A stretch of DNA of 64,000 nucleotides from Tetradesmus obliquus (Eukaryota > Chlorophyta > Chlorophyceae > Sphaeropleales > Scenedesmaceae): contig CP126194.1 in NCBI GenBank assembly GCA_030272155.1, positions 5,323,501-5,387,500 on the forward strand. The letters are read 5' to 3'. This document shows positions 1 to 26,006 of the stretch, in pieces (the first letter of the stretch is position 1; every line of letters starts with the position of its first letter). The notes beneath the pieces are model-generated. The model had not been told where the DNA came from. It was given only the letters and a program-made list of their open reading frames with translations, and searched no databases. The translations under genes and the position numbers were made by a program.

Positions 1-880
1 GGCGCTGCAGATGCAGCTGCTGCTGCCGCTGCTGCGGCTGCTGCCAGTGCAGCAGCGAGCCCTGCTGCATCTGTGATGCCCTCATCTTCTGCTGCTGCCT
101 GCAGCTTCAGTGCTGCCTTGACCTGTGCGGGTGAGGCATGGCCTGCGGCTGCCTCGACTGCCCGCTGCAGCTCCAGCGCTGCTGCAACCTCCTCGGGTGT
201 AGATGACGCGGCTGCTGCTGCCAGCTTCAGCTGCCCCTGCAGCTGCCCCGGCTGGTAGATGCCTGCCTGCGCAGCAATGTCGCCCAGCTGCAGCGCATCA
301 CGCAGCCGCTGCGGCTCCACCAGCCCACCCAGCTGCTGCTTGGCTGCCGCTGCCAGCGCTAGCCGCTGCTGCAGCTGCTGCCTGTCGTAACTGCCAACCT
401 CCTGCTTCACCAGGGCAGCAGCAGCAAGCGCCTCACGCAGCCGCTGCTCACCGCTGGCATCCTCCCCAAACTCCTGCCGCACCAGCGATGCTGCTGCCAG
501 CGCCTGCTGCACCTCAATGCCGTTGCAGTGCCCCAGCTCCGCCTGGCATGCTGCCGCTGCTGCCAGCGCCTCCCGCAGCTTCTGCTCGCTAGCATCTGCC
601 CCCAGCTCCTGCTTGCACACCGCTGCAACCGCCAGCGCCTCCTGCAGCTGCTTTGGAGCCGCATTCGCTCCCAGCTGCTGCTGCGCGACAGCAGCAAGGC
701 TCACAGCGCTTGCCAGCTGATCATTGCTGAGTGCAGATGCACCACCTGCGCCGCCTGTTGCGTTGCGCACAGCACCCAGCAACTTCAGCGCCTCAGCCAC
801 CTCAGCAGGGTCTCTGCTGTCCAGCTCGCTACGCATGGCTGCATAACACGCCAGCGCTGCCTTCACCTCTGAGAGCTGCG
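1..880 (-). repeat. Protein-level array of ~23-residue repeats in the myosin tail
   Basis: The last visible myosin exon encodes about 12 degenerate units of 19-26 residues. The clearest read [20 protein letters not shown] and [16 protein letters not shown]. The pattern is a leading L or V, then AL two or three residues on, an alanine-rich helix, then QELG or similar and a variable loop. The units become almost pure alanine near the left edge. The frame stays open from 1055 to 1, so this is coding and not a microsatellite shadow. It looks like stacked helices (alpha-solenoid) or a segmented long helix; I do not recognise it as a named repeat. Confidence 0.75.
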
Positions 881-3800
881 TGATGCCGTACTGATCCTTG
901 AGTGCAAGGAAGCCCTCCTCTGCCTCCCTGCGAGCTGCCTCTGCTGCTGCCTCAGCTGCCTCGCGCTTGCGGCGCGCCGCCAGCCGCGCAGCCACGCGCT
1001 TGTTGAGCTGGCGGCTGCGCTCCGCTGCCTGGAAGACGGTGACAGCGCGGTGCACCTGCAGGACGTGCGGCAGCAGATACAGCAGCACATAGCACAGCAA
1101 AGTCAGGTGTGCGGGCTGGTGGTAACAGTGCTCCTGCAGACAAATGCATCAGCTGCCACAGCAGGCACCAGCACAGGAGGCGCGGTCCTCATCAGTTGAG
1201 CACTGCTCTGCTAACGCATAGTATGCAACACAGCATGGCTTGCTGCTGCCTTTCAGCTTTGCTGCAAGCTGCTGCTGTAGGTGACCCGCCGCGCACCTTC
1301 TTGTATTCTGCGCGCTGCACGCCGCCCCTGTAGTGCCGCTGGATGCACACGGCCGCCTTGTGCTCCCGCAGGTCCTTCGCAAACTGCAGCCGCGCCACGC
1401 GGCCGCGCCACGCGCTCTGCAGCAGCAGCGCCGCCGCCCTGTGCTGCTGGAAGCGCTTGCGCGCGAAGAACATGCGCGTGTAGGCCTGCAGCTTGAGCAC
1501 TGAGGACTGCATCTTGGCCCAGGTGTCCTCCACATAGCCCAGCACGCCTGCAGGACACATGGTAAGAGCAAGCACAGTGCAGCAGAGTGCAGCAGAGTGC
1601 AGCAGTTGTTGGTCAAGTTGCACAGGCAGCAGCTGCTGCTCCTGCTCTGCTGCTACACGCAGGTACAGGTTTTGCTTGCAAGTCACTGCATCGACAAAGA
1701 GCACGCAGCCAGGTGCTCTAAAGCATGCTGGTGCCAGAAGTCCAAACTCTCTCTACATCAGGCAGGACAATGCACTCAGTCAAGCCACAGTGCTATCCCA
1801 CATGCATGTGCAAGACTGCATATGCAAGACTGCATGTGCAAGACTGCTAGCTTAAAGCTCACCTGGCTTGAAGAAGACCTTGGTGCGGCCCATCTCATAC
1901 TGCCCAGGTGGCACCTTGAACACCGCCAGCAGCTGCACCACGGCCGCACGCGTCTCGCCGTCATTGTGCAGCACCATACCCTGCTGCTCGCGCGGCAGCA
2001 GGATCTTGTAGCGCGTGACGAAGTCCGCGTGGCGGTAGCGCGTGGGGAAGCCTGCACGCGACACGCGAGCCACCTCCAGCACACCACAGCAGCGCAGCTG
2101 CTGCAGCACAAGCTCGCTTGTAAAGGAGCCCGGCGAGAGCTTGGCATTGGGCTTGATGCAGCGCACGAAATGCAGGCCGGTGGCGTCCAGCATGCTGACG
2201 AGCTCACGCAGCTGCTGCGTGAAGCGGCTGCTGACTGTCTGGCCGCCGCGCTTGCCCTCCATCTCGTCTGCTGTGGTTGCGGCGATGCTGGTGATGAGCG
2301 GGCTGCAGCTGCTCTCCATCAGCTCCACCAGGTCTGTTTGCAGCAGCAGGTAGAGCACAGGCAAGGCGAGCACATGTTTTTAGCATTGTGCTACAGGTTT
2401 GACGGCGTATTTTGGCGCAACGGCATGATGACGGTGGGCTGCTGTGTGTGCTGCACTGCCATTGTAGTTCATGCCCCACCTCTCGCAGACGCCAAGCAGG
2501 CTGGTGTGTTGGGCCCCCACCTGTGTTGAGCATGTCCTTGTTTTTGTCGAGGAAGCCGGACGCATTGTAGCTCACAGGCCCCGCGTAGTGCTTCACAAAG
2601 AACTCGCCCTGGCGGCGCGGGTCGGTGCCAAAGTGGTCGTTGCTTGATAGCGCGTCACCCAGCGCATGCATGAAGGTCTCGTCGCTGCCCTTAGGGAAGC
2701 GGCACTGGCTGTCCAGCACTGCTAAAACGCCGAGGCCCTTAGGGGGCATGGCCTCAATGACATCCACGCAGGCCTGGTTGTCCACCCACTCCACCTGGCA
2801 TGTGCAGGAAGCAGCAGCACAGAGACAGCAGCAGCGGCAGAGGATGAGCAAGAGCAGGGCAAGCTGAGCATGCTGCAGGTGCATCACGTGAAGGCACAAT
2901 CATGCCGCAGGTGCATCACGTGAAGGCACAATCATGCCGCAGGTGCATCACGTGAAGGCACAATCATGCCGCAGGTGCATCACGTGAAGGCACAATCATG
3001 CCGCAGGTGCATCACGTGAAGGCACAATCATGCCGCAGGTGCATCACGTGAAGGCACAATCATGCCGCAGGTGCATCACGTGAAGGCACAATCATGCCGC
3101 AGGGAGCGCTGCAGACCCCAGGCTGACAAGCGGGGCACAAAGGGCGGACACTGCCAGTGCTTATACCACAGTACCCGCTGCTTCCATAAGAGACTGCTGC
3201 AAACTGCAGAAGTTGCTGGTAACCCTACATGGTCCTGCTGCTGCTGCTGCTGCCGCTGCTGCTGCAGCGGTTGTGACCGCACCTTGGTCCAGTCGATGCC
3301 CTCAGCCTCGTACTCCTCCTGCTCCAGCGTGAACAGGTGGCGCGTGAACTGCTGCTGCAGCCGCTCGTTGGCGTAGTTGATGCACAGCTGCTCAAAGCTG
3401 CAGGAGGCAGGCAGCAGCAGGTGCAGGAGCAGGAGCAGTGCGGAGCGGGCGTTCAGTTCGGGGGCGCGGCGCCGGCAGATTCTGGCAGCAGACGGCGTGT
3501 GCCACACAGCATGTGCCACTGGACTCGCAAAACACACGCAGCGCCTGGCAGGGAACAGATGCTTTTTGCAACCACTATCCCATTCCCCGCAGCTGCGCGC
3601 ACCTGTTGGTCGTGAACTGCTCAAAGCCGTAGATATCCAGGATGGCAATGAAGCGCCCGCTGGCTTTCTTGCCCATGTCCAGCTTAGCGTTGATGGCGGC
3701 CACGATCCAGCCAAAAACACCGGCATAAAGGGCCTTAGCCAGTGCGTCGCGCGCGTCACCGGCCTCCTGGGCTGTCAGCGGCTTCACAATGAGCTCGTCA

Positions 3801-6728
3801 CGCGTCTTGATCTGTTGGTTGAGGTGTGCAAACATGTTGTTGACAGACAGCACGCCAGCACGCAGGAAGGTCAGCGTATGGCAGGCCGGAGACAATCAAG
3901 AACATCTGTGCACAACAGGCAGCCAGGACAGCTGGACGTTTCAACAACTGGCAAGTAACGCAGCATACAGCGCTGGATAAGTTGATGGGTGACCAGCAGC
4001 TGCCGCCTGCGAGCGCAGCGCTTCACCTTCTTGTGTGTGAGCGCATACGCCAGGTCCTTCTCCCTGAGCCCCAGCATGCTGGCAGCATTCGCCAGCGCAG
4101 CATCAATCTTGATGCGGCTGCTGTCGTCTGCGTGCACCGGCTCCACCTTGAGGTTGCCCAGCCACAGGATGCCGCTCAGGCTGGCCAGCAGCGCGGTGAT
4201 GTCAGCGGGGCTGAGGCCGATGTCAGCCAGGGCCTCCAGCACCTCGGCAAAGTTGGCTGCATCATCCACGCCGTCAATGTCCTGCAAGGCAGATGTTGGG
4301 ACGGTCATCAAGCAGAGCACAGACTTCAGCATCGCTGCTGCAACGGGGCATCAGTACGGATGGTGAACTTGCACGAGCACCACAGCAGCAGCATTACCAT
4401 GGCTGGTGCCAAGCACATGGCACGAGCAGTAGTTGGGGTGGCAGGCGCCTGCTAGCACCACCACCACTGCTGCTGCTGCTGCTGCTAATCGCTCACTGTG
4501 CAGCCGCTCTTGGCCAGGTAGGCAAAATCGGAGGGCTTGTTGGGCAGCCTCAGCGCCTCACGCTGGGTCTTGTCCTTGGTGCCGCGCACCAGCTGGTAGA
4601 AGATGTGGTAGCTGCGCTCGCCCTTGAGCTGGTGCACCTGCAGGTACCCGGCAGTACAGCAAGCACAGGCGGTGGTGTGTAAAGCACAGATGTGCGTGCT
4701 TACATGAGGGGCAGGTTACCTAGCGCAAGGTGGCCAAGGTTTTCTGCCCTAAGCCCACAGTGCATTGCAGGCACACAACACACAACACGGCTACAGCTGT
4801 TAATGCTGTAAGTTTCGTGTGTCTGTTCTGGTGCTGCCAACTCGGCAGCAATGAAAAACAACTTCCCACAGACACTCAACACCCAGCATCAGCATGTATG
4901 CACCCCCTCCAGGCACTCACCACCCTGCTCTTCTCCAGCAGGTACGTCCTGATGCGCGCCCCACAGATGTGGTTGGTCTTGTTGAAGTGGATCTCGATCA
5001 GCTTGCCGAAGCGGCTACTGTTGTGGTTGCGCAGCGTCTTGGCGTTACCAAAAGCCTCCAGGATGGGGTTGGTCTGCAGGGTGGGCAGTGGGAATTTAAA
5101 AGGAGGCCAGAGCTCTATCAGGCGAACTCAGGCACAGGATTCAGGTGTGATCAGATGCAGCACAGCATAGGACTACGTACTGCAGTTCTTCCAAGCCGAG
5201 TGCCGCATCCTGTGACACTGCAGCAGCTGCAGCACCCTCCAGCTGCTGAACTTCTGGCAGATGCCGTTAAGTCAATCCCGCACCATCATCAACTGGCTAG
5301 GCATACACCATGTCTCTCTGCTGCTGTTGGATTGGCCTGAGCTTACAGCAGCCCTGCTGCTCGGTTCCACGTAAGCGCTGGCTGCAGGCTGGCAAACCCC
5401 TCTTCAAACCATAGCAACCGCTGCTGCAAACTCCATCCGCCTTACCTCCAGCACCTGCCCCTCCACGCCACAAGTGCTGGCCACAACCCCTACCCTCGGT
5501 CCTTGCTGCAAATAATGGAGACAGCCCCTGCCCTCCATCCCCCTTTGCCACTGCCTGCCTGCCATTCAGCTCACCTCCAGCACCTGCCCCTCCACGCCGG
5601 TGCCCCCCGCCAGCGCCGCAAAGAACTGCATGGCCTTCTTGGTGGTCTCCGTCTTACCGGCGCCGCTCTCCCCGTTGATGACCAGCGACTGGCTGGTGCC
5701 CTGGCGCACCATGTCCCTGAAGGCCGCGCCAGCCACCAGGTAGATGTGCGGGTCCAGCTGGTTCACTGCCTCAAACGCGCCCGCTGCAGCAGCAGGCGCA
5801 TGTTCAGGTGCAGAGGGACCAGGGCATGTGTGCATGTCAGGGGTGGTTAGGGGTGTATTGATAGTGGCTGCTCTGCAGAAGGCAGCACTTGCTGCTACTG
5901 CTGGTGCTCCTGCTGGCTAAGCTAGGATCCAGACGAAAACACACAAGTGCTGCCAGCTGCGGGAGTGCAGGTGTACACCCGCCGGTGGCAGCTGCTGCAG
6001 GTGAAAAAGTCAGCACCAAGCTCGATGTACTGCAACATGCCGCCATTACCAGCAGTACGAGATCAGCTGCGCATGGATACTGTGTGCTTGTCAGCATGAC
6101 ATGTGCAACACACTTCCCCTCACGAGCCACAACTGCAACAACAGTCATTGCCTAATCTCTTTGCGGCTGCCCCATGGTACCCTAGCACATGCTGGTACCC
6201 CGCCTGAGGTCTGCACAACTGCATCTGCGCCTGCTGCTGCTGCTGTCCCCTGTCTGCTTGAAATGCCACTCCTGCTCCTGCTCCTGCCTGCAACACAAAA
6301 TGGATGTTTGCTGCACACACCATAAACCCCACCTCCCACCACCAGCAGCAGCTCACCCTTGTATTGGTCGGCCACCTGTGAGGTATACAGCGGCAGGTTC
6401 CTGCAGGGGTTGACCGCTATCAGCACCGGCCCCGCATTGGTGTAGATGCAGTCGCCGCCGTAGCGCTGGAACAGGTTGTCCAGGATGCTGGGCTCGTTCA
6501 AATATGACAGCTGCGTGAGGTCAGCAATGGCCTGCTGCAGCTCGGGGTTTGCAGGAACAAGTTTGCTGGGCTCCACGCCTTGCAGGAGCTTGCCAGGGTG
6601 GCCGCTCAGCAGCGCCACTGTGGGCTTGCCGTTGCTGTTCTCCTTGATCTCTGCAAGCAGCCATGTCTCTGCGTCCTGCTTGTACCAGACGCGCGAGCCC
6701 TTGCTCAGGCTGCCGACTGTCTCGTCCA

Positions 6729-6729
<1 letters not shown>
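1..6729 (-). CDS. Class VIII-like myosin heavy chain, 3' end beyond the window
   Basis: Actin-based motor. Exons, in transcript order: 6729-6357, 5783-5575, 5073-4921, 4637-4497, 4281-4027, 3811-3603, 3397-3283, 2794-2521, 2333-1863, 1547-1297, 1055-<1. All phases join, giving 817 codons before the last exon. The ATG at 6729 opens an SH3-like N-terminus. [12 protein letters not shown] and [10 protein letters not shown] follow and resemble plant class VIII rather than class XI. The P-loop [10 protein letters not shown], switch [10 protein letters not shown], switch II DIYGFE and the SH1-helix stretch [18 protein letters not shown] are intact, so an active ATPase is expected. Exon 10 (1547-1297) carries three IQ motifs for calmodulin-type light chains. 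Exon 11 has a charged R/E/A helix, then an array of ~23-residue repeats instead of an ordinary coiled-coil tail. Family assignment is firm; class VIII is inferred from motor motifs alone. The tail end lies outside the window. Confidence 0.93.
2876..3103. repeat. 32-bp minisatellite, seven copies, in a myosin intron
   Basis: Seven near-perfect head-to-tail copies of a 32-bp unit start at 2876, 2908, 2940, 2972, 3004, 3036 and 3068, with a few bases of an eighth. The array sits in the intron between exons ending at 3283 and starting at 2794. Every unit contains the palindrome CACGTG within ATCACGTGA, so the array holds seven G-box/E-box cores. Confidence 0.95.
5446..5505 (-). other. Candidate in-frame cassette exon in the myosin loop 1 region
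   Basis: Between exon 2 (ends 5575) and exon 3 (starts 5073), an acceptor TTATTTGCAG precedes position 5505 and a donor GTAAGG follows 5446. The enclosed 60 nt have no stop in the phase-0 frame that links exons 2 and 3, and would add 20 residues ending GVEGQVLE. That ending is the same as the end of exon 2, because the last 26 bases repeat the exon 2 edge including its GT. Use is predicted, not shown. Confidence 0.5.
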
Positions 6730-6760
<31 letters not shown>

Positions 6761-7702
6761 GATAGTAGCAAGTGCCAGGGGTGAGGAAGAGCAGCACAGC
6801 ACCAACCAATCAGCGCAACAGCAACACTAGCAAGCATGCATAATCCACAGGAACGAGCGTTTATGCAAATTGCAAAGGTTGTCTAGAGTTCCCTGCATAA
6901 CAGAGAGGGATGTCTGAAGTACAGGACTCTGGACCTTGCACAGCAGCAGCTACAACTGCTCAATGCCAGAAACAGCAGCTGCCCATCAGCTGCTAAGTTT
7001 GCAGGCTCGGCGATCGTAACAAGGCCATTTGTGCTGATGCGCAAGCGCTGCTACTGATAGGAACCAACAGAGCCAGTCAGTTGCAGGACGAAAACTCCCT
7101 GTGCTGCTGTTGCCGCTGTGCTCGCCCAGCCGATGTCTATGCAACAATTCTCGTCAGAACTGAAGCTTTGATGCCTGCACTGCAAGCTTACCGGTTTGCA
7201 ATGAGCTCCTACCGCTCCTTGCCTCCGGTGCTCCTTTCCTAGTGTGCACTGCTCAGCTCCATCACATGAGACTATGAATAGCTGAAATATATATGATGAT
7301 ATTGCGGCGTTGCAGCAGTAATCGCGGACAGAGGAAGTGCGATACACCTAAAAAGAGGGGCACCCCTTGCTGCTTCCGCTGTTTCCCCTACGCACTCAAA
7401 CAAACGCGCTTGAGAGTGCTACGTCAGTCTCTTGCCGGTGACGAGGAGCATGCGATTGAAGTGACAGTCACTCACCAGACCCAAGTGACCAGAACCTAAC
7501 CAGCCAGCTGATACTCACACCAACTCATCAGGGCCCCCCTCACCTGCCTAATTGTGGTCTTGTGTGAGTCGTTCAAGAAAACTGCTTGCTAAAACATTAT
7601 ATTACGTGCGCTCATTACCACTTCACTAGCAGCAGGAGCAGCAGTAGCAGCAGCAGCAGCACTGGCAGCAGCAGCAGCAGTAGCACCAGCAGCAGCAACG
7701 TC
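6730..7702. promoter_or_regulatory. Divergent intergenic region between myosin and heme lyase
   Basis: This 973-bp spacer separates two genes transcribed away from each other and should hold both promoters and 5' leaders. A run of eight CTG triplets touches the myosin ATG (6730-6753), and AGC-rich stretches precede the heme lyase ATG (7629-7700). AATATATATGATGATATT near 7286-7303 is the most AT-rich part. I see no convincing coding ORF. Confidence 0.5.
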
Positions 7703-8011
7703 ATGGGGGCAGAAGACGCTCACAGGGCTTTCGTGCGCGCAGCATCTTCAACTGGTGCACAGTGTGCATCAAACACAACAAGTGCAGATGCTGCAGGTGG
7801 GTGACCCGTGATCTGCTGGCTGCCGCACGGCAACCCTGCAGCCTGCAACCCTGCAACCTGCACACCTCCAGGCACCACGTCGTGTTTGTACTCATGCTCA
7901 CCTTGAAGCCTCATACAATACTACACTGTATGATGCATGAAACATGTGAACTGGTTGACCTGTTGCTGCTGGATCTGCCCGACCTCCGTAGGTTGCCCTG
8001 TGGCAGCTCCC

Positions 8012-8042
<31 letters not shown>

Positions 8043-8782
8043 CGCAGCGCAGTGCAGCATGCAGCTCTCCTTCTGCAGCAGCATCAGCAGAGCACGCAGC
8101 ACGCATCAACATGGACGTGGTCAGCAACGCAGCAGCCAACAGCAGCAACCTCAGCACGCAGCGGCAGGCCTCCAGCATACCCATCGCAGCCAGCCAGCTG
8201 CCGCAGCACCAGCAGGAGGCGGCAGCTGACGTGTGGATGTACCCCTCAGAGCAGCAGTTCTTCAATGCCATGAAGCGCAAGGTGGGCCGGGGCAGGCAGC
8301 TGCCAGCAATCAGCATCAGCAGCTGTCAGCTGACGCCAACGTTGTTTGTTAGTGGCAGACCAAGCGAGCTGTGCACATGCAAGCTTGCGGTCCTCTAGCA
8401 ATGCAGCAGCCTGTGACCAGCTGTACTCGCAATCAGCAGCTGCAGCGACAGCAGATGTTGTCTGCTAGCTGCTGCTGCGAACTGCCGCGCTTGCACCCGT
8501 TCCAGCCACGCACAGCTTGCCAGCAAGCAGCACATGTTGACCCTGCAGTGGTGCACAGTCACTTCGCGCATGTGACTGCACCACACAGCAGCGCAACCTT
8601 GTTTTCAGTCCCCCTCCTGCGATGCGCACCTCATCATCGTGGCTCAGCTCCCTCCACATGTCAGCTGGCCTGCTCTAGCGCTGCTGCTACTGCCCATAGG
8701 CCAAGCATGCAGCCTCTTGCTGCTGCAGCCACCACATGATCCACAAATGCTGGTGCAGCAGAACCCCCTGCAGCTCACACTA

Positions 8783-25158: not shown

Positions 25159-26006
25159 AGGTGCGCCTGGCCAAGGAGGCGCAGGAGGCTGCGCGCACCG
25201 CGCTGTCCCTGGAGCCGGAGAACGACCTGGCGCACCACCTCATGGGCCGCTGGCACTTCGAGATGGCGCAGATCAACTTTGTGGTGCGGCAGCTCATCAG
25301 GCTGGTGTACGGCGCGGCGCTGGCGCCCGGCAAGTTTGAGGACGCGCTGAGCGAGTTTGAGGCGGCCGTGGCGCTCAACCCCACACGGCTCATCCACAGG
25401 TGCGCATGCTGCCTGCTGTTGTGGGTGTGCACAGTATGCAATGATATTATGAACCTCTGTGGGTTGTAAACATTGGAGCCCCTGCGTGGCGCTCAACCCC
25501 ACACGGCTCATCCACAGGTGAGCCGGCCGCCTGCTGTTGTGGTGTGTTTGTAGCTGGTGGCTGTACTGCAGCTGCAAGGTGGGTTGATCCCCTGCCCCGT
25601 GCTATATGGCACTCCAACGCAAAACTCACCGCCGCAAGCGCTGCTGTGCTGCGACTGTTGTGGCCTGTGCTGCTGCCGCCAGGGTTGAGCTGGGACGGCC
25701 CTCTGCCACCTTGCTACCTGCCAACTTCCTAACACTTGATCTGCTTCTAATTCTGTTGGAGCTCTTTGGACTTGCCGCTACCTGCTAACTGTGTTGCACT
25801 GTTGTGCCCTGCGCTGCTGCATCCAGGGTTGAGCTGGGGCGCACGCACCTGCGGCTGGGTCACAAGCGCGAGGCATACGAGCACCTGAGCGCCAGCATGG
25901 GCATGGAGATTGACGATGTCAATGCCAAGCTGCAGCGGGACGACGCGGAGCTGCTGCTGGACAAGCTGAAGGGCGAGTTTGAGCGCTCAGTGAGCTGGGG
26001 AGGCTT

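Follow-up and report, generated by a model that had tools for sequence, protein, structure and literature searches.

Splice junctions can be duplicated locally in more than one way. The RdRp gene of potato carries a tandem genomic duplication across an intron/exon boundary (PMC4974935); the direct duplication includes a splice site and part of an exon, and it has given rise to an additional exon and a new, spliced intron, which 106 RNA-seq reads support. In the Rogers model, as outlined in two sources (PMC3443670, PMC4974935), tandem duplication of a tract containing a splice-site-like AGGT makes the copied exon end into the 3' end of a new intron. Tandem exon duplication and mutually exclusive exons, as treated in a further source (PMC9013439), involve copies of exons with both splice sites. 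On the protein side, two reports (PMC8191873, PMC3912159) describe splice variants of loop 1 in the myosin II of scallop and smooth muscle; these tune ADP release, with longer loops giving faster release. The introns of the green alga Tetradesmus obliquus are long, averaging 462 bp versus 230-302 in four other green algae, according to a published table (PMC5966456).

We analysed a window of 64,000 nucleotides from T. obliquus (contig CP126194.1, positions 5,323,501 to 5,387,500; the parent assembly has 104,662,953 bases in 17 contigs). The minus strand of the window contains a myosin gene (1..6729) that starts at 6729 and continues past base 1 of the window. Its hand-made model has 11 exons: 6729-6357, 5783-5575, 5073-4921, 4637-4497, 4281-4027, 3811-3603, 3397-3283, 2794-2521, 2333-1863, 1547-1297 and 1055-1, the last being open beyond the window. 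The ten modelled introns are 187-573 nt long. The original prediction had called the gene a myosin, and a profile search agrees: the Myosin_head profile PF00063 matches at 764.7 bits against a curated cut-off of 33.3 (E 1.1e-229), and an IQ motif is also present. The nearest solved structures to the motor are entries named myosin Va, myosin II heavy chain and 'motor domain of myosin' (7dhw). Exon 2 (5575..5783, minus strand) encodes the P-loop, the following helix, loop 1 and VEGQVLE, and ends in phase 0 with the donor GTGAGC. Exon 3 (4921..5073, minus strand) encodes a segment starting with 13 residues read in the hand model.

The 3'-terminal 24 bases of exon 2 and the GT that follows (5573..5598, minus strand) recur as 26 identical bases in intron 2 (5444..5469, minus strand), 129 bp downstream of the original; the coordinates originally given for this pair were correct to the base. 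With its flanks, the ungapped pair extends over 37 nt at 89% identity. An AG at 5506-5507 lies 60 nt before the copied donor and bounds a candidate cassette (5446..5505, minus strand) encoding 20 residues. Translation confirms that this segment is open and without a stop in the frame linking exons 2 and 3. If it were included, the upstream intron would be the 69 nt at 5506..5574 (minus strand). The locus has a direct repeat of an exon end with its donor, on the intron side of the junction, and in this resembles the duplication across a splice junction in potato. However, the potato copy creates a new intron and exon, whereas the algal copy appears to stay within the old intron. With the Rogers model it shares the local direct duplication and an AGGT in the copied tract, but the end of the copy (5446) lies 372 nt before the start of exon 3 (5073) and thus is not the 3' end of an intron. 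The likeness to tandem exon duplication is the presence of exon-like sequence in a neighbouring intron; here, however, the copied part is the last 24 nt of an exon and its donor.

Little distinguishes the myosin copy from a large class. Local direct repeats occur throughout 272 kb of sampled genome. We considered junctions of modelled exons of at least 60 nt with a coding score of at least 10. In 352 kb, a copy of the exon end lay within 300 nt on the intron side at 59 of 363 donors and 49 of 380 acceptors; about one junction in seven in the sampled gene models has such a copy. In 20 shuffled controls, which paired junctions with introns of other genes, matches of at least 15 bases had a mean of 0 at donors (maximum 0) and 0.05 at acceptors (maximum 1). 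Copies on the other side of the junction, with the same sample and limit, were seen at 23 of 363 donors and 21 of 380 acceptors. A scan with a 700-nt limit, requiring an exact, non-repetitive match of at least 15 bases around the exon end, gave a downstream copy at 34 of 279 donors (controls: 0 inverted, 8 on the other side, 0, 1 and 1 in three shuffles) and a copy at 26 of 293 acceptors (0 inverted, 11 on the other side, 1, 0 and 0 in three shuffles). Array members and low-complexity cases were taken out manually, which reduced the 34 donor copies to 29 for profiling and to 25 for later analyses; in three cases (L014:7957, L012:3861 and L019:4394) the distance to the nearest copy was entered manually as the spacing. 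From the 59 copies, 58 were used, and 49 for codon positions after nine from two arrays (L030 beyond 7000, L013) were dropped.

The density of these copies is a more interesting result than the myosin case itself, though it is uneven. Of 29 stretches, 18 contain donor copies, with 11 in L030 alone; the window with an 8-kb extension has 93 donors and three copies, one of which lies in repetitive sequence. The second clear instance in the window is at 25365..25520 (plus strand), where 36 identical bases of an exon end and its donor recur 118 bp downstream, in an intron of another gene model. Successive copies of one exon end and donor with a period of about 151 bp were observed in L012 (3830-4620), apparently an expanding array. 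In L030 (about 7200-8600) there is an array with a 106-bp period, in which a 72-nt exon-like unit with its donor is repeated. None of the literature found in our searches describes introns of Tetradesmus or of another green alga as often containing copies of exon ends, which is not proof that no such report exists.

The spacing and extent of the copies point to tandem units. The median spacing is 139 for all 58 used donor copies, and 118 (interquartile range 108-139) for the 39 copies at 180 nt or less. A unit forced to span the junction predicts that copy frequency falls with distance into the exon. Among 14-base probes taken every 5 bases, 84 of 1419 from the last 30 exon bases were copied, compared with 13 of 1280 from -105 to -75; the first 30 intron bases gave 27 of 1403, and the two figures at acceptors were 42 of 1492 and 23 of 1382. 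As expected of a tandem unit, 13 of 24 testable copies also have intron halves that resemble each other (P < 0.05), whereas the sequence upstream of the copy shows a resemblance in 4 of 24 (P about 0.05 or less). In the myosin gene the intron parts of the 129-bp unit are not significantly alike (P = 0.129); the copied tract may have been shorter than the full unit.

Reading frame does not constrain the copies as a class. Spacing was a multiple of three in 9 of 10 repeat clusters within one exon versus 8 of 40 involving an intron (Fisher P = 8e-5). The other 18 of the 68 clusters fell outside this comparison: 13 between separately called exons (4 with multiples of three), four intergenic (2) and one exon-intergenic (0). 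Spacing free of frame wherever introns are involved indicates that intronic copies as a class are not read as protein. The myosin spacing of 129 happens to be a multiple of three.

We conclude that the myosin copy is probably a neutral relic of a local direct duplication across the exon-2/intron-2 junction, removed together with the intron. One small duplication out of the large genomic population, in which shorter-range copies are typically spaced about 118 bp apart, would have spanned the junction. Splicing would stay with the original, stronger donor, and the second exon edge would be lost inside intron 2 (5074..5574, minus strand; 501 nt), which would be excised whole. The duplication would be neutral; the intron would lengthen, and copy and intron would then drift. 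As the original edge and donor would stay constrained, the exon side of the copy and its first intron bases should be the last to become unrecognisable. That an in-frame acceptor lies 60 nt upstream of the copied donor is most likely fortuitous.

The best surviving alternative, although rather unlikely, is that exon-end copies do not drift but are preserved, whether by selection or by gene conversion from the exon. Over 58 copies, identity of about 0.90-0.96 between -25 and +5 drops to 0.69 or less beyond, and the sharp fall after +5 is also seen in the 25 copies kept by hand. However, much of this fall is reproduced by a simulation of neutral tandem duplication with indels that constrains nothing but the original exon and its donor, and thus we rejected the loss of identity after +5 as proof of constraint on the copies. 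At the best of 32 parameter settings the simulated profile is similar in shape to the real one, with residuals: identity in the last exon bases is 0.94-0.96 versus 0.88-0.89 simulated, while from +5 to +15 the observed values are lower (0.69 and 0.60 versus 0.78 and 0.70). Third positions account for 85 of 159 differences in 49 copies, versus 636 of 1744 in the best-fitting simulation; a hand estimate of the neutral share, for a copy beside a constrained original, is roughly 44%. There are no stops among 149 changed codons in the 58 copies. The third-position excess and the missing stops exceed neutral expectation, and some copies may be genuine exons, or gene conversion may keep them similar to their originals.

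The synonymous bias is, however, not tied to the presence of an acceptor. Copies with an in-frame acceptor have 23 synonymous and 24 non-synonymous changes, and those without have 51 and 38 (P = 0.37). A bias at least as strong in copies that lack a usable acceptor argues against exon use, and leaves gene conversion or errors in the gene models. Nor are the donors of the copies biased: GT is kept in 51 of 59 and average quality equals that of the originals, the original being stronger in 16 of the 51, equal in 21 and weaker in 14. Real coding exons as a general reading of the copies were thus rejected on the free frame and the unlinked synonymous bias, some copies excepted.

For the myosin copy itself, the original prediction had proposed a regulated cassette exon. 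Inclusion would add 20 residues to loop 1 and alter ADP release, and skipping would give the short-loop motor. We regard this as quite unlikely, although the anatomy of the proposal holds. Strictly, the junction falls after VEGQVLE, the start of a helix, and thus outside loop 1, where the insertion had been placed; the cassette would nevertheless in effect enlarge loop 1. As VEGQVLE is repeated in the copy, the protein would regain the helix leading into NPILEAF, with the added residues in the loop, and the predicted inclusion product, written out over 39 residues, has a loop 1 longer by 20. A genome search found two further myosin genes (C11:2293005-2297456 and C3:8084942-8088826). Both read through the loop-1 junction without an intron, so that of the three genes only this one has the intron. 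Between GG and the helix (VEEQVLE or IEQKVLE) they have 15 and 20 residues, versus two here; a loop longer by 20 residues is thus structurally plausible and fits the fold. A scan of viral contigs with exon 2 gave 16 pattern matches, none of them a relative. The muscle myosin II variants (PMC8191873, PMC3912159) are alike in position, just after loop 1, and in changing the length of the loop. However, they are expressed animal isoforms, whereas the algal segment is a candidate. A literature search for alternative splicing of loop 1 in algal myosins had a single match, which concerns toxins.

The splice signals speak against regulated use. In general, GTAAGG would pair slightly better than GTGAGC with the U1 consensus, and the copied donor had been described as the closer of the two to consensus. 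The donor scoring of this alga reverses the order: GTAAGG scores 5.51 (36th percentile) and GTGAGC 8.18 (91st). G occupies +3 in 82-86% of modelled donors (L004-L031 and the window), which read GTGAG, GTGCG or GTGGG rather than GTAAG; GTAAG was found at 6 of 279 donors versus 82 of 279 for GTGAG. The loss of score from original to copy in the myosin gene is the second largest among the 51 copies that keep GT. The cassette acceptor (5.67, 33rd percentile) is better than that of exon 3 (4.43, 20th percentile). Yet among 5560 random placements in 139 introns, 7.5% gave an in-frame open cassette with an equal or better acceptor, and 43% gave one with a positive acceptor score. An acceptor as good was present in 4 of the 25 real copies, including that of myosin, and two of the four lack GT. 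The signals of the cassette are thus not better than expected by chance.

The upstream intron needed for inclusion presents a further difficulty. At 69 nt it would be shorter than any of the ten modelled introns of the gene; among models of the retrained gene finder 25 of 338 introns are below 70 nt, and several of the short introns listed for the earlier version look doubtful. The 69-nt stretch (5506-5574) contains no branch-point-like YTNAY. However, YTNAY is present in 47% of 287 intron tails versus 32% of bodies, no branch-point consensus can be derived, and thus its absence is weak evidence. The parts of the proposal that stand are the myosin, the effective site at loop 1, the open in-frame 60 nt, a usable acceptor and the plausibility of 20 added residues; the regulated pair of motors does not follow from them, given the high base rate of copied exon ends in this genome, the chance quality of the acceptor and the weak donor.

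Gene-finder predictions at the copy are unstable. The finder is a small home-made program, trained on 272 kb of the genome and retrained on 352 kb, with gene models based on sequence; since it was seeded from this myosin gene, the match between its output and the hand model is in part circular. The first version predicts the cassette, whereas the retrained version predicts instead a 9-nt exon (5446-5454) inside the copy. The minimum intron was 40 in the version used. At 5500 the exon probability with this minimum is 0.49 and 0.32 in two models, but 0.0 once the minimum is raised to 70; at 5450 all four settings give 0.86-0.91. This is compatible with noisy exonization, i.e. splicing-in of the 60 nt at trace level, or of 9 nt via a CAG inside the copy, with no regulated function. 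Scored as acceptors, AGs within the copy reach 4.21 and 3.98. However, DNA copied from an exon inherits its coding score, so that exon scores on copies are inflated and are no evidence of use; indeed, the finder predicts exons at 10 of the 25 copies. We consider noisy exonization very unlikely.

Similarly improbable, in our estimate, is a wider scenario. Junction duplications would seed thousands of intronic exon-end copies with donors (extrapolated from 352 kb) and so provide a standing supply of exon material; the myosin copy would have met an in-frame acceptor and would now yield a second motor with a loop 1 longer by 20 residues, a splice switch outside animals. Chance similarity or an assembly artefact is hardly credible, as shuffled controls are near zero and the copies diverge from their originals to varied degrees, unlike assembly stutter.

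If the sampled density holds genome-wide, one of the main ways in which introns of this alga grow would be by short local duplications spanning splice junctions, and the copies would be a systematic trap for gene annotation. They also are natural raw material for studying how new exons arise. A long-loop form of the myosin, if proven, would give a handle on the tuning of ADP release in a motor of the plant lineage. In view of the potato precedent, the long introns of T. obliquus (PMC4974935, PMC5966456) and the fact that no such population was reported in the literature we found, the class of exon-end copies deserves a proper survey.

Two other repeats were observed in the myosin gene. A Pfam search of the tail gave no match above cut-off; the tail (window 1-1055 and L003 about 6990-8000) contains degenerate repeats of about 22 residues, with an autocorrelation z of 5.6 at offset 22. 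A tandem array of 32-bp units (window 2875-3103) lies within the 488-nt intron 7.
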